The notes beneath the pieces are model-generated. The model did not search any database, had not been told where the DNA came from, and worked only from the letters and a program-made list of their open reading frames with translations. A stretch of DNA of 64,000 nt from Streptomyces sp. NBC_00162. Lineage in GTDB: Bacteria; Actinomycetota; Actinomycetes; Streptomycetales; Streptomycetaceae. The DNA lies in NCBI RefSeq assembly GCF_024611995.1, contig NZ_CP102509.1, positions 4,340,001 to 4,404,000 on the forward strand. Direction: 5' to 3'. The translations under genes and the position numbers were made by a program. Shown piece after piece: positions 3,288 through 63,238 of the stretch. Positions within the stretch are counted from its first letter, which is position 1, and each line of letters begins with the position of its first letter.

Positions 3288-4208
3288 GTGACCGTGCCGG
3301 CCAGTACAGCGCCTCAGGTGCCACCCCAGCAGGACCCGCAGCAGGACTCCCAGGTGCCGCCCCAGCAGGAGCCCCGACAGGAGCCGCGACAGGAGCCCTC
3401 CCCCGAGGAGCCCCCGGCCCCGCCCACGCCTCCGAGACCCCCGAGCAGGGGCGCGGACACCCGGGCCCTGACCCAGGTCCTCTTCGGGCAGCTGAAGGGG
3501 CTGCAGCCGGGCACCAGCGAGCACACCAGGGTGCGCGGGGCCCTCATCGAGGCCAACCTCCCGCTCGTCCGTTACGCGGCCGCCCGCTTCCGCAGCCGCA
3601 ACGAGCCGATGGAGGACGTGGTCCAGGTCGGCACCATCGGCCTGATCAACGCCATCGACCGGTTCGATCCGGACCGCGGGGTGCAGTTCCCGACCTTCGC
3701 GATGCCGACCGTCGTGGGCGAGATCAAGCGCTACTTCCGCGACAACGTCCGCACCGTCCACGTGCCCCGCCGCCTCCACGAGCTGTGGGTGCAGGTCAAC
3801 GCCGCCACCGAGGACCTCACCACCCTCCACGGCCGCACCCCGACCACCGCCGAGATCGCCGAGCGGCTGCGCATCACCGAGGACGAGGTCCTCTCCTGCA
3901 TCGAGGCCGGCCGGAGTTATCACGCAACTTCGCTCGAGGCCGCCCAGGAGGGCGACGGCATGCCCGGCCTCCTCGACCGCCTCGGATACGAGGACCCGGA
4001 GCTGGCCGGGGTCGAGCACCGCGACCTCGTCCGCCACCTCCTCGTGCAGCTGCCCGAGCGTGAACAAAGGATCCTGCTCCTGCGGTACTACAACAATCTG
4101 ACGCAGTCGCAGATCAGCGCCGAGCTCGGCGTCTCCCAGATGCACGTCTCCCGACTCCTCGCCCGGAGCTTCGCCCGACTGCGATCCGCAAACAGGATCG
4201 AGGCGTAA
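3288..4208 (+). CDS. sigF: RNA polymerase sigma factor SigF (SigB/SigF subfamily)
   Basis: This is a 306-aa group 3 sigma factor. A disordered Pro/Gln-rich N-terminus of about 55 residues is built from repeats of the type PPQQDPQQD. Region 2 follows ([20 protein letters not shown], then [19 protein letters not shown]), then region 3 ([14 protein letters not shown]) and region 4 with the helix-turn-helix [20 protein letters not shown]. In Streptomyces this factor is needed for late spore maturation. The GTG start at 3288 is used because it begins the Pro/Gln tail and follows GGGGTGG. No anti-sigma gene is adjacent, so control must come from a locus elsewhere. Its paralogue sigN follows after 230 bp. 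Confidence 0.92.
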
Positions 4209-4438: not shown

Positions 4439-5287
4439 ATGTCCGTAGACCAGGGCAGCTCCAAGGTGCTCACGCTCGTCAAGAGCGCGACGCCGGCAGC
4501 ACCGGCAGCGTCTGACCGCTCGGAAGCCATCGACACCCGCACCCTCTCCCGCTCCCTCTTCCATCGCCTTGCCGCCCTGGACGCGGACAGCCCCGACCGG
4601 GCGTACGTACGCGACACCCTGATCGAGCTGAACCTGCCCCTGGTCCGGTACGCCGCCGCGCGCTTCCGCAGCCGCAACGAGCCGATGGAAGACATCGTCC
4701 AGGTCGGCACCATCGGCCTGATCAAGGCGATCGACCGGTTCGACTGCGAACGCGGAGTGGAGTTCCCGACGTTCGCGATGCCGACGGTCGTGGGCGAGAT
4801 CAAACGATTCTTTAGGGACACCTCCTGGTCCGTCCGCGTCCCGCGGCGCCTCCAGGAGCTGCGCCTCGCGCTGACCAAGGCCAGCGACGAGCTCGCCCAG
4901 AAACTGGACCGCTCGCCGACCGTCCCCGAGCTCGCCGCCGTCCTGGGCGTCTCGGAGGAGGACGTCGTCGACGGCCTCGCCGTGGGCAACGCCTACACCG
5001 CCTCCTCGCTCGACTCGCCCTCCCCCGAGGACGAGGGCGGCGAGGGCTCGCTCGCGGACCGCCTCGGCTACGAGGACACCGCGCTCGAGGGTGTCGAGTA
5101 CCGCGAGTCCCTGAAGCCTCTGCTCGCCAAACTCCCGGCCCGGGAACGGCAGATCATCATGCTGCGGTTCTTCGCGAACATGACGCAGTCGCAGATCGGC
5201 GAGGAGGTCGGCATCTCCCAGATGCACGTCTCCCGGCTGCTCACCCGCACCCTCGCGCAGCTGCGCGTAGGCCTCATCGGCGAGTGA
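4439..5287 (+). CDS. sigN: RNA polymerase sigma factor SigN (SigB/SigF subfamily)
   Basis: This is a 282-aa group 3 sigma factor closely similar to the upstream SigF. Shared blocks include [39 protein letters not shown] and the region 4 helix [20 protein letters not shown]. The N-terminal extension is short (about 30 residues) and lacks the Pro/Gln repeats of SigF. In Streptomyces, SigN is a developmental sigma factor used in a sub-apical compartment of aerial hyphae. The ATG at 4439 follows AAGGGGG at good spacing. The 230-bp gap and its AT-richer block near 4280-4340 indicate an independent promoter. Confidence 0.92.
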   Translation: MSVDQGSSKVLTLVKSATPAAPAASDRSEAIDTRTLSRSLFHRLAALDADSPDRAYVRDTLIELNLPLVRYAAARFRSRNEPMEDIVQVGTIGLIKAIDRFDCERGVEFPTFAMPTVVGEIKRFFRDTSWSVRVPRRLQELRLALTKASDELAQKLDRSPTVPELAAVLGVSEEDVVDGLAVGNAYTASSLDSPSPEDEGGEGSLADRLGYEDTALEGVEYRESLKPLLAKLPARERQIIMLRFFANMTQSQIGEEVGISQMHVSRLLTRTLAQLRVGLIGE

Positions 5288-25687: not shown

Positions 25688-25701
25688 GTTTCACGTGAAA
25701 C
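25688..25701. other. parS site
   Basis: Exact GTTTCACGTGAAAC. It is intergenic, in the promoter region upstream of the acyl-CoA ligase, 22 bp from a second parS. Confidence 0.93.
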
Positions 25702-25709
25702 ATCCTCTC

Positions 25710-25723
25710 GTTTCACGTGAAAC
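25710..25723. other. parS site
   Basis: Exact GTTTCACGTGAAAC, centre to centre 22 bp from the site at 25688 (two helical turns). It lies between the ECF sigma factor stop (25747) and the ligase gene. Confidence 0.93.
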
Positions 25724-37185: not shown

Positions 37186-38259
37186 TCATGCCGTGAGCAG
37201 CACGCCCGCGTACGAGACCCCCGCGACCACCACCCAGGCGCCGAGTCCGAGCACCGCGGCCCGCCCGCCGGTCCGGGCCAAGGTCGGCAGGTGCACCGCG
37301 CTGCCCAGACCGAACAGGGCCGCCGCGAGCAGGGCCTCCTGCGCGGTGTGCGCCCACTCCAGTGCCAGGTCGGGCAGTGCTCCCGTGGCGCGCAGGGCCG
37401 CCGCGGCCAGGAACCCGGCCACGAACAGCGGCACCGGGGCAGGCCGGCGACCCGAGGCCGTGCGCACGCCGCGCCGCCGGGCCCGTACGGAGAAGGCGAC
37501 GGCCGCCACCAGCGGGGCGAGCAACGCCACCCGCATCAGCTTGACCAGCACCGCCTCGCCGAGGGCACCCGGGCCTGCGGTCTGCGCGGTGGCCACCACC
37601 TGGCCGACGTCGTGGACGCTCGCGCCGACCCAGCGCCCGAAGGCGAGGTCGGAGAGCCCCAGGGGCCCTTGCAGCAGGGGAAGCACCGCGATGGCGAGCG
37701 TCCCGCACAGGGTCACCAGCGCCACCGATGCGGCCACGTCCTCCTCGTCGCTGCCCGACACCTCGCTCACGGCGCCGATCGCCGAGGCCCCGCAGATCGA
37801 GTACCCGGTGGCGATCAACAACGGCTGGTCGCCGGGGAGTCCGAGGCGACGCCCGAGCCAGAGGGTGCCGAAGAAAGTGGCCGCGACCACCCCGGCCACC
37901 ATGGCGACCGTCGCCCAGCCGAGCCGGAGGACCTGGTCCAGCCCCAGACCGAGGCCGAGCAGGACGATGCCGATCCGCATCAGCCGCCGCCCCGCCAGGG
38001 AGAGGCCAGGACGGGCGGTTCCCCGTACGTAGCCCCGCAGCCCGGGGAGATGCGCCACGGCGATGCCCAGTACCACCGACGCGGTCAGCATGGGCACGGC
38101 GGGCACCACCCGGTGGATGCACCAGGCCGCCAGCGCTCCGCCCGCGGCCGCCGCCAACCCCGGCCAGACGGTGGATGTTTCTCCCCCAGCTACCGCTGGG
38201 GGTTCCCCCAGTGAAACATGCCGGACCGCCGCGCTCTGGGGGCGGTGGAGGAGCGCCAT
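37186..38259 (-). CDS. YeiH/UPF0324-family membrane protein (putative sulfate exporter)
   Basis: The protein is 357 aa with about 10 membrane helices. Signature parts are GIVLLGLGLGLDQVLRLGW, ATGYSICGASAIGAVSEVSG (family motif GxSICGxSAI) and RWVGASVHDVGQVVATAQTA. Members are annotated as putative sulfate/sulfite-related exporters. ATG at 38259 shares one base with the stop of the cysteine dioxygenase (TGATG), so export of oxidised sulfur from cysteine is plausible. The N-terminal segment VSLGEPPAVAGGETS is encoded by the hairpin-interrupted parS at 38175-38219. Confidence 0.87.
   Translation of the reverse strand: MALLHRPQSAAVRHVSLGEPPAVAGGETSTVWPGLAAAAGGALAAWCIHRVVPAVPMLTASVVLGIAVAHLPGLRGYVRGTARPGLSLAGRRLMRIGIVLLGLGLGLDQVLRLGWATVAMVAGVVAATFFGTLWLGRRLGLPGDQPLLIATGYSICGASAIGAVSEVSGSDEEDVAASVALVTLCGTLAIAVLPLLQGPLGLSDLAFGRWVGASVHDVGQVVATAQTAGPGALGEAVLVKLMRVALLAPLVAAVAFSVRARRRGVRTASGRRPAPVPLFVAGFLAAAALRATGALPDLALEWAHTAQEALLAAALFGLGSAVHLPTLARTGGRAAVLGLGAWVVVAGVSYAGVLLTA
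38175..38219. repeat. Split parS: parS arms flanking a GC hairpin element
   Basis: ATGTTTC (38175-38181) and GAAACAT (38213-38219) are the two halves of an extended parS whose central ACGT is replaced by 31 bp. The insert contains the hairpin CCCCCAGC-tacc-GCTGGGGG and a further CCCCC run. Net gain is 27 bp, which keeps the yeiH frame. Confidence 0.72.
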
Positions 38260-53185: not shown

Positions 53186-55207
53186 ATGACGGCCACCGCC
53201 CCCGCCCCATCCACGGCCCACGCCCGGGTCGCGGCACTTCTGCCGCGGCTGGTGCTGGTCCTCGCAGCCCTGCTGGCAACCCTGTTCACCGCGGCCGCCC
53301 CGGCCTCGGCACACGCCGCACTCACCGCGAGCGACCCCAAGGACGGGGCGGTGGTCGCCACGGCCCCCGCCCAGGTCACTCTCTCCTTCTCGGAGCAGGT
53401 CGCCCTGGGCGACGACTCCATCCGCGTGCTGGACCCCCAGGGCAAGCGCGTGGACACCGGCGAACTGCGCGACATGTGCAGCGGGAACACCATCCGCTAC
53501 GGCACCGCGCTGCACTCCGGTCTCCCCAACGGCACGTACACCGTCGCCTGGCAGGCCGTCTCCGCCGACAGTCACCCGATCTCCGGCGCCTTCACCTTCT
53601 CCATCGGAGCCCCCTCGGCGACCGATGTCACCCTGCCCACCGGGCAGGCGGGCGGCGGGCCCGTCGGCATCGCGTACGGGATCGCCCGCTACGCCGCCTA
53701 CGCCGGCTTCACCGTCCTCGTCGGCGGCGCCGCCTTCATCCTGCTGTGCTGGCGCCGGGGAGCCGCCGAACAGCCGCTCCAGAAGCTCGTCGTACGCGCC
53801 TGGGTGACCCTGACGGCCGCCACCCTCGCCATGCTCGTGCTCCGCGCCCCCTACACCGGGTCCGGGAAGTTCGCCGACGTCTTCGACCTCGAGGGCCTGA
53901 AGGCCGTCCTGGAGACCAAGACCGGCGCCTCGCTGATCTCCCGGCTGCTCCTGCTGGGCGCCGCGGCCCTCTTCATCGCGGTCCTCTTCGGCGTCTACGC
54001 ACGCCGGCAGGGCTCCGCGGCCACGGAGGAGGACGCGGAAGAGGGTTCGACGAAGGACGCGGAGGAGGACGGCGACACCGAGGCCAGGGACACCAGCGAC
54101 CTCACCTTCGGCCTGGGCATCGGCGGGGCCGTGGTGTCCGCCGGTATCGCCGCCACCTGGGCCCTGTCCGAACACGCCTCCACGGGCGTCCAGCCCGGCA
54201 TCGCCATGCCCGCCGACATCCTGCACCTGCTGGCCGTCGCCACCTGGCTCGGCGGGCTCGCCGCGCTGCTCGTCGCCCTGCACAAGATCCCCGGGATCGA
54301 GCGGGCGGCCGTCCGGCGCTTCTCCCAGGTCGCCTTCGTCAGTGTGCTGGTGCTCGCCGTCACCGGCGTCTACCAGTCCTGGCGCCAGCTCGGCAGCTGG
54401 TCGGCACTCACCGGCACCTCGTACGGACAGCTGCTGCTCCTGAAGGTCGGCCTGGTCGCCGTCCTCGTCGGCATCGCGTACGTGTCCCGGAAGTGGACCG
54501 CACGGCTCGCCGACGCCCCCGCGGGCAGCGTCGATGTTTCACGTGAAACATCGACCGCCGCAGCCCATGTTTCTCCCCCAGCTACCGCTGGGGGTGCCCC
54601 CGGTGAGACATCGCCGGTGACCGTACCTGCCGACCCGCAGCGCGCCGCTCAGCTCGCCCGGCAGCGCGCCGCCCTGGAGAGCGCACGCGAGAAGCGGGTC
54701 CGTGACGCCGACCCGGACCGCGCGGGCCTGCGCCGCTCCGTCCTCGCCGAGGCCGGTGTCGCCGTCGCCCTCCTCGCCGTCACCACCGTGCTCACGAGCA
54801 CCGAGCCCGGACGCACCGTGGAACGGGAGGCGTCCCGCGGCTCCACCTCCACGGCCGTTCCCGACCGCGCCGTGAAGATCACCCTGCCTTTCGACACCGG
54901 CGGCCAGAACGGCAAGGGGAACGTCCGGCTCGAACTCGACCCGGGGCGGGTCGGCGCCAACACCCTTCATCTCTGGGCCGACTCCGCCGATGGCACGCCC
55001 CTCGACCTCCCCGAGGTCAAGGTGTCCTTCACCCTCCCGGCGAAGGACATCGGCCCCCTGCCCCTCCTGCCCGAACGTGCCGCCCCCGGGCACTGGACGG
55101 CGTCCGGTGTCCAGCTGCCGCTCGCCGGCGAATGGCGCATCGACGTGACCGTGCGTACCTCCGACATCGACCAGACGACCGTCCAGAAGACCGTGAAGAT
55201 CGGCTGA
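53186..55207 (+). CDS. CopC-CopD fusion copper protein with C-terminal YtkA-like domain
   Basis: The protein is 673 aa. A signal peptide precedes the CopC domain, whose mature N-terminus starts with His after ASA (AHAALTASDPKDGAVVATAP). The second site is SADSHPISGAFTFSI. The CopD membrane domain has eight helices (from ~residue 155), interrupted by an acidic cytosolic loop (EEDAEEGSTKDAEEDGDTEA). A linker encoded by a parS and a split parS (DVSRETSTAAAHVSPPATAG) is followed by a TM and a beta-rich C-terminal domain (VKITLPFDTGGQNGKGNVRL). It probably moves copper across the membrane. It is 22 bp after ecuC. Confidence 0.9.
   Translation: MTATAPAPSTAHARVAALLPRLVLVLAALLATLFTAAAPASAHAALTASDPKDGAVVATAPAQVTLSFSEQVALGDDSIRVLDPQGKRVDTGELRDMCSGNTIRYGTALHSGLPNGTYTVAWQAVSADSHPISGAFTFSIGAPSATDVTLPTGQAGGGPVGIAYGIARYAAYAGFTVLVGGAAFILLCWRRGAAEQPLQKLVVRAWVTLTAATLAMLVLRAPYTGSGKFADVFDLEGLKAVLETKTGASLISRLLLLGAAALFIAVLFGVYARRQGSAATEEDAEEGSTKDAEEDGDTEARDTSDLTFGLGIGGAVVSAGIAATWALSEHASTGVQPGIAMPADILHLLAVATWLGGLAALLVALHKIPGIERAAVRRFSQVAFVSVLVLAVTGVYQSWRQLGSWSALTGTSYGQLLLLKVGLVAVLVGIAYVSRKWTARLADAPAGSVDVSRETSTAAAHVSPPATAGGAPGETSPVTVPADPQRAAQLARQRAALESAREKRVRDADPDRAGLRRSVLAEAGVAVALLAVTTVLTSTEPGRTVEREASRGSTSTAVPDRAVKITLPFDTGGQNGKGNVRLELDPGRVGANTLHLWADSADGTPLDLPEVKVSFTLPAKDIGPLPLLPERAAPGHWTASGVQLPLAGEWRIDVTVRTSDIDQTTVQKTVKIG
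54536..54549. other. parS site within copCD
   Basis: GTTTCACGTGAAAC lies inside a 24-bp perfect palindrome (54531-54554). It is coding, encoding V-S-R-E-T of the CopD linker, and lies 18 bp before a split parS. Confidence 0.93.
54567..54611. repeat. Split parS: parS arms flanking a GC hairpin element (second copy)
   Basis: ATGTTTC (54567-54573) and GAGACAT (54605-54611, one mismatch to GAAACAT) flank a 31-bp insert. The insert shares TCCCCCAGCTACCGCTGGGG with the copy at 38175-38219. Total length is again 45 bp. It is in frame within the CopD linker. Confidence 0.72.
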
Positions 55208-62582: not shown

Positions 62583-63238
62583 TCACGTTTCACGTGAAAC
62601 AGGGGTCGTGTTTCACGTGAAACGTGGCGGGTGAGCGGCCAGGCGAGCAGGCCGACGGAGAGCGCGATGGCGTGCCCGAGGTCGGTGAAGGTGCCGCCGG
62701 TGAGGAGAGGGAGCCCGAAGAAGGCGACGGCGCCCGCGAGGTAGAGCCACCGCCAGGGGCTGGGGAGCCGGTAGGTGAGGACTCCGACGGCGGCCGCGAT
62801 TCCGTAGCTGACGCCGATGTCGACGACATGGGTCATGGTGCGCGGGGCGCGGTGGTCCTGGATGGCCATCAGGAGGACCTTCTGGCTGACCAGTGTCGCG
62901 ACGATGTGGGCGGTCGCGACGATCAGGAGCCAGCGCAGGGTGCCGAGCCAGCGTTCGACGGGGGCCTGGAACAGCTCGAAGAGCACGGCGTAGAGAGCGA
63001 GCGAGGCCGGGTTCTCGATCCAGAAGGCACTGCTGAGAAGCGCCCTGACGGGGTATTTGACCAGCTGGTGGATGTTGCTGCTGTTGCGGTGGAGCAGGAT
63101 GTGCTCGACTCGGTCGGGCGCGATCACGACGACGATGCTGGTGATCGCGATGATCAGCAGCCAGATGTGCGTTCCGGGCGAGGAGCGTATCCAGGACCGC
63201 AGGGGCCTGGACGGCTCAGGCTCGGGGTGCTCGATCAT
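62579..63238 (-). CDS. Rhomboid-like integral membrane protein, 219 aa
   Basis: About six TM helices are predicted (IWLLIIAITSIVVVIAP, LALYAVLFELFQAPVERWLG, LRWLLIVATAHIVATLVSQK, HVVDIGVSYGIAAAVGVLTY, YLAGAVAFFGLPLLTGGTFT, GHAIALSVGLLAWPLTRHVS). Rhomboid features are E-R-W-L-G in the loop and the GxxH-like end of the last helices (DLGHAIAL). The catalytic G-x-S-G is absent (DIGVSYGIA), so proteolytic activity is unlikely. The C-terminal tail HVSRETRPLFHVKRD is encoded by two parS sites. Its stop overlaps the response regulator end by 4 bp. Confidence 0.82.
   Translation of the reverse strand: MIEHPEPEPSRPLRSWIRSSPGTHIWLLIIAITSIVVVIAPDRVEHILLHRNSSNIHQLVKYPVRALLSSAFWIENPASLALYAVLFELFQAPVERWLGTLRWLLIVATAHIVATLVSQKVLLMAIQDHRAPRTMTHVVDIGVSYGIAAAVGVLTYRLPSPWRWLYLAGAVAFFGLPLLTGGTFTDLGHAIALSVGLLAWPLTRHVSRETRPLFHVKRD
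62587..62600. other. parS site at 3' end of the rhomboid-like gene
   Basis: Exact GTTTCACGTGAAAC, 23 bp from the next copy and a few bases beyond the response regulator stop. Confidence 0.93.
62610..62623. other. parS site at 3' end of the rhomboid-like gene
   Basis: Exact GTTTCACGTGAAAC. Together with 62587-62600 it encodes the last 15 or so residues of the rhomboid-like protein. Confidence 0.93.

Follow-up and report, generated by a model that had tools for sequence, protein, structure and literature searches.

Sequence comparison across Streptomyces shows that parS sites are genuinely and repeatedly interrupted, at one exact position, by a dispersed palindromic repeat, which occupies five non-orthologous parS loci in three Streptomyces species. 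Two of these loci lie in the window analysed here, a 64,000-nt stretch (C1:4340001-4404000) of the 9.02 Mb assembly of Streptomyces sp. NBC_00162. The insert is almost certainly a copy of the repeat residing in a former parS. The explanation that best covers the observations as a whole, with a probability of roughly 0.6, is that the repeat took the place of the central CACG when it entered a parS, with loss of ParB nucleation, and was then copied from one parS to another.

Interrupted parS sites of NBC_00162

The NBC_00162 genome displays 25 exact GTTTCACGTGAAAC sites within ~331 kb (4353284-4684285), and the window lies at one end of this cluster. A search of the window for GTTTCACGTGAAAC with up to two mismatches returned six places, all exact, against a mean of 0.04 in shuffled sequence. 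Neither interrupted site is among the parS matches at up to two mismatches, in the window or in the genome, as both lack the contiguous 14-bp palindrome. Two tandem parS pairs, at 25688-25723 and 62587-62623, present start-to-start spacings of 22 and 23 bp, respectively. The second member of the latter pair, the intact parS at 62610-62623, is the counterpart of a site interrupted by the same repeat in S. bambusae (L157, which aligns with the window). The window also contains long imperfect direct repeats at a spacing of ~1.08 kb (3531-3821 and 4607-4897, 79%; 4038-4183 and 5120-5265, 73%), perhaps paralogous genes, while a peptide motif that we take to be from DnaA is located at ~4484708 of the genome.

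The first interrupted site (38175-38219, forward strand) comprises ATGTTTC (38175-38181), a 31-nt GC-rich insert and GAAACAT (38213-38219), read directly from the sequence. The preliminary description of this DNA had reported parS halves split here by a hairpin-forming insert, and both the halves and the hairpin are present. The site is located in frame in a gene of the reverse strand (37186-38259) whose product matches the PF03601 profile (E 5e-60); the name yeiH was given in the preliminary description, and the ATG at 38259 is our choice of start inside a longer open frame. The insert lies in the N-terminal part of the protein, which reads VS-LGEPPAVAGG-ETS. At the corresponding position, two relatives (G042 and G039) have ATGTTTCACGTGAAACAT with matching flanks and are exactly 27 bp shorter, so that the PF03601 gene of NBC_00162 has gained nine codons and remains in frame, as previously proposed. 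An intact parS is also found at this locus in G038, G012, G070 and G046, giving 6 of the 20 relatives' loci scanned (L097-L102); it is absent from the other 14, which belong mostly to more distant relatives. Orthologues without a parS had been named as evidence against an interruption, and the closest relatives do carry one. Thus a parS that the nearest relatives retain was interrupted in frame in NBC_00162. The parS centre has been lost, although not exactly as the proposed replacement of ACGT: the best junction converts CACG into a 31-nt CT...AG segment or, equally well, AC into 29 nt. Compared with the empty sites, neither this locus nor the second one, described below, shows a target duplication, 2-4 bp having been lost instead.

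The copy of the repeat, CTCCCCCAGCTACCGCTGGGGGTTCCCCCAG, extends over 31 nt (38181-38211, forward strand) and has GGGGGTT where the canonical 32-nt form, CTCCCCCAGCTACCGCTGGGAGGTGCCCCCAG, has GGGAGGTG. Its computed fold is a hairpin, CCCCCAGC-TACC-GCTGGGGG (38183-38202, forward strand), of -10.3 kcal/mol as single-stranded DNA (z -4.7; as stable in 0 of 200 shuffles), while the canonical form has a hairpin z of -2.5. A third arm, CCCCCAG (38205-38211), repeats the first, and the middle arm could pair with the third instead. The two ends of the repeat thus have the same orientation (CCCCCAG...CCCCCAG), and only the arm between them is inverted.

A second interrupted parS (54567-54611, forward strand), overlooked in the preliminary description, is 93% identical to the first over 45 nt. 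It is arranged as ATGTTTC-repeat-GTGAGACAT, is likewise in frame with a gain of 27 bp, and has a right half changed from GAAAC to GAGAC. Its host is a CopC-CopD (YcnJ-like) gene of the forward strand (53186-55207), in which it directly follows the stretch that encodes the CopD domain match. The same gene carries, just upstream, an intact ATGTTTCACGTGAAACAT (54534-54551) encoding VSRET in frame. Four of the eight relatives' loci aligned (L127-L130) have an intact parS at the point of insertion and the other four have none; S. bambusae displays one intact parS at its own CopC-CopD locus. The GAGAC half fits loss of function or relaxed constraint, although only one base has changed.

The repeat and its likeness to known families

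The NBC_00162 genome has 39 copies of the 20-nt core of the repeat (up to two mismatches), which lie on either strand and in diverse surroundings. The exact 18-nt core is present in 945 copies, distributed over 102 of 392 Streptomyces genomes, with the highest numbers per genome including 78, 55, 51 and 47. The insert is thus, as judged from sequence, a copy of a dispersed REP-like Streptomyces repeat, of a general kind that is already known. The earlier reading of a small palindromic sequence that entered an existing parS is borne out by the empty site in relatives and by the same arrangement at another four parS loci, the five being spread over three species. The repeat is not specific to parS: 37 of the 39 copies in NBC_00162 lie outside parS, although per base parS is hit ~100-fold or more above expectation. 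Equal frequency outside parS, which the preliminary description regarded as contrary evidence, is accordingly largely borne out in raw counts (941 of the 945 exact-core copies in 392 genomes are, by pattern, not between parS halves) but not per base.

Several other arrangements of the repeat were observed. The same insert is present in some copies of a larger Streptomyces repeat, GCGCCTCAAACGCCGGCGGGGCTGG, and missing from others, which gives filled and empty pairs with ~3 bp lost (empty in L038, L051 and L198; filled in L039, L042, L045, L046, L048, L051, L062, L063, L190 and L217). At about position 1500 of two loci (L071 of G051 and L075 of G068), a shortened form of the repeat sits at the tip of long terminator-like hairpins, and in L080 (G031) copies are arranged in tandem with a 66-bp period.

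The repeat resembles the REP elements associated with RAYT/TnpA-REP enzymes in its length (20-40 bp), palindromic character, tens of copies and presence in both orientations. In REP families GTAG, or a similar tetranucleotide, is conserved at the hairpin foot. GTAG is present in the repeat on the reverse strand, GCGGTAGC, but is located within the hairpin loop and arm rather than at the foot. A further difference is that a Y1 transposase was not found beside a repeat copy at 30 loci. Intragenic REPs have been described (PMC3733652), and the main text of that article, as far as it was accessible, mentions neither Streptomyces nor entry into parS.

MITEs, non-autonomous derivatives of insertion sequences, are short, dispersed and non-coding, with terminal inverted repeats and target-site duplication. 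Similar to these, the repeat is short, dispersed and devoid of coding capacity, and is presumably moved in trans. In contrast, its ends are direct rather than inverted, and the parS sites of the PF03601 and CopC-CopD genes carry no target duplication. The interrupted sites themselves are related to the Streptomyces parS in that relatives carry the canonical GTTTCACGTGAAAC at the interrupted points, but their halves stand 27-29 bp further apart and give no match at up to two mismatches.

A search for a mobilising enzyme with PF01797 gave a match in 14 of 28 repeat-rich genomes (at least 10 exact-core copies) and 7 of 28 repeat-free genomes, both sets picked by hand (P 0.10; divergent enzymes could escape the profile). 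The repeat core was absent from the ~1.5-kb flanks of the 30 PF01797 loci examined among the 40 matches listed. The sole match in NBC_00162, at C1:7596446, adjoins a TnpB-like ORF and appears to be the remnant of an IS605-type element. In the literature searched, consisting mostly of papers available without subscription, neither the repeat strings AGCGGTAGCTGGGGG, AGCTACCGCTGGG and GGTAGCTGGGGGAG nor a description of recurrent replacement of parS centres was found.

Interrupted parS in other species and possible routes of the repeat into parS

Three further interrupted parS, two in S. bambusae SK60 and one in Streptomyces sp. ISL-87, were identified in a scan for a single exact pattern in one genome per species, a set from which the NBC_00162 genome itself was possibly left out. 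Besides L157, the S. bambusae sites include L158, which lies next to genes that we take to be rplI and a MATE transporter gene and aligns with an intact parS pair of NBC_00162 (4453305/4453339), clearly on the right half and its flank. The ISL-87 site (L156) is flanked by genes that are presumably a sensor kinase gene and phoX. Seven of the 12 related loci scanned have a parS; in L219, L223 and L225 it aligns with the left half of the ISL-87 site in the same intergenic gap, and the corresponding NBC_00162 locus (L222) has none. Thus an intact parS is present in at least one relative, although not in every relative, at all five interrupted sites. All five also share the junctions GTTT-CT...(A/G)G-TGA(A/G)AC (hyphens mark the junctions), and in each the parS halves are pushed apart by 27-29 extra bp. 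The third arm of the repeat differs between the two S. bambusae copies, while ISL-87 has the canonical arm.

A pattern scan of 392 genomes, in which parS halves could stand 0-8 nt to the left of the exact core and 5-22 nt to its right, found 4 of the 945 exact-core copies between parS halves, two in NBC_00162 and two in G355, all with one left offset; the scan sees an insertion only if GTTTC and GARAC are preserved close to an exact core, so that insertions at outer bases of parS escape it. G355 is a S. bambusae genome, its locus L163 being 100% identical to L158 over 3043 nt. The more open pattern TGTTTCBN{15,38}GTGAAACA, which is blind to the second NBC_00162 site because of its GAGAC half, matched in 43 of the 392 genomes, among which inspection by eye recognised the repeat in NBC_00162 and G355 only. 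The remaining matches looked, by eye, like tandem parS variants or chance, with no other type of repeat inside parS. One candidate of another kind, ATGTTTCGTTCGCCTACGCTCCGAAACAT in G019 (L011), was rejected as an interrupted parS: it overlaps what we read as the start codon of a hydrolase-like gene and has no BLAST similarity to the window.

In the proposed route, a copy of the repeat would first replace the central CACG of one parS. The resulting parS-repeat composite would then spread by copying to other parS of that chromosome, with the identical half-sites serving for short-homology recombination or template switching. Preservation of the reading frame by the 31-bp form, with its net gain of 27 bp, may be what allowed the two intragenic copies to survive. 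Such copying between parS, judged on its own, falls a little short of an even chance and is slightly favoured over repeated targeted insertion. Copying through the half-sites would explain both the identical junctions and the paired occurrence. The four cases of the pattern scan fall in two genomes, two in each (P 0.008 for no more than two genomes if independent), and the flanks outside the interrupted parS remain orthologue-like. Among 190 distinct exact-core copies, a convenience sample partly chosen from listed places, the subtype GGGGGT(T/G)CCCCC accounts for 3 of the 5 parS copies and 13 of the 185 others (P 0.004). In NBC_00162 this subtype comprises both parS copies and none of the 37 others (P 0.002 against 0 of 32 exact-core copies). 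Frame selection alone could explain the +27 subtype shared within NBC_00162, because the canonical form would add 28 bp. Two further points weigh against copying: one S. bambusae copy of the subtype is located outside parS (C23), and the half-sites, at 7 and 9 bp, offer very little length for homologous recombination. The differing S. bambusae third arms, together with the canonical arm of ISL-87, also imply that the five copies are not all recent copies of one. The stronger proposition, that the repeat uses parS half-sites as homing arms, copying itself between parS at single-base precision and so eroding the parS array of the chromosome, is possible but somewhat doubtful.

Independent targeted insertion is the closest competitor, and a credible one even if the odds are about two to one against it. 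Here an enzyme that spreads the repeat would prefer parS, or an AT-rich ATGTTT beside a C..G step, and would convert CACG into CT...AG anew each time. The single junction in five of five cases and the differing third arms of the two S. bambusae copies and ISL-87 are consistent with this, as is a mild AT enrichment on the left side of the repeat, at positions -5 to -3 (by our own arithmetic TTT is favoured ~7-fold; the tally covers 65 of the 67 target families among the 190 copies, each with one representative, the two with a left flank ending in GTTTCT being left out). That preference still predicts just 0.019 matches at the junction. Moreover, the repeat-richest genomes, with 78, 55, 51 and 47 exact-core copies, display no parS insertion by pattern whereas two genomes have two each, and the PF01797 search of 28 repeat-rich and 28 repeat-free genomes found no such enzyme.

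Capture of hairpin tips, in which the repeat would take over the loops of palindromes or hairpins in general and parS would be just one such target, is improbable. It is suggested by filled and empty pairs such as CTCAAAC[GCC]GGCGGGG and by the two terminator-like hairpins mentioned above. Against it, the two flanks in the 67 families are not more complementary than mismatched pairs of flanks, the mean run being 1.88 compared with 1.80 in the mismatched pairs (P 0.24) and a second score 2.34 compared with 2.34 (P 0.51). Runs of at least six occurred in two families, one of them the parS family, where 0.42 were expected (P 0.06). As a general target rule, hairpin tips are not supported by this test. 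Chance, namely a common repeat landing in parS occasionally and being found because many genomes were searched, is slightly less probable again. The repeat is indeed common (945 exact-core copies in 392 genomes) and redundant parS would tolerate insertions, but with 25 parS assumed per 8.6 Mb genome about 0.01-0.04 copies (0.014-0.036) are expected between parS halves, compared with the four observed at a single offset; counted as two independent events, P is ~1e-4 to 6e-4.

ParB nucleation and the redundancy of parS

Each ParB subunit reads one parS half-site. With 27-29 extra bp between the halves, ParB clamps should not nucleate, and the interrupted parS has probably lost ParB nucleation, as far as sequence allows a prediction. 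Weak ParB binding at these sites is possible, since P. aeruginosa ParB is reported to bind an isolated half-parS (PMC10419367). This binding, and the ability of the whole 45 nt to fold through pairing of the half-sites in single-stranded form, could also suggest a functional composite in which parS and hairpin together act as a terminator or as an altered loading site for ParB or SMC, a very unlikely proposition given the sporadic distribution over non-orthologous sites of three species, the altered right half of one site and the in-frame translation of two copies. In S. venezuelae, 16 parS, and one in addition, are bound by ParB (PMC12511625).

The insert would be tolerated in NBC_00162 because many parS remain, 25 of them exact, and the loss of 2 of ~27 parS is probably neutral. 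The repeat thus probably inactivates individual parS within a redundant set.

Chromosomal centromere sites are usually regarded as conserved fixtures. The recurrent replacement of parS centres offers a natural series of interruptions for testing how many parS a Streptomyces chromosome needs, and the five comparisons of empty and filled sites provide a way to understand the movement of very short palindromic repeats. If copying between parS sites is real, a few bp of common sequence can serve as homing arms.
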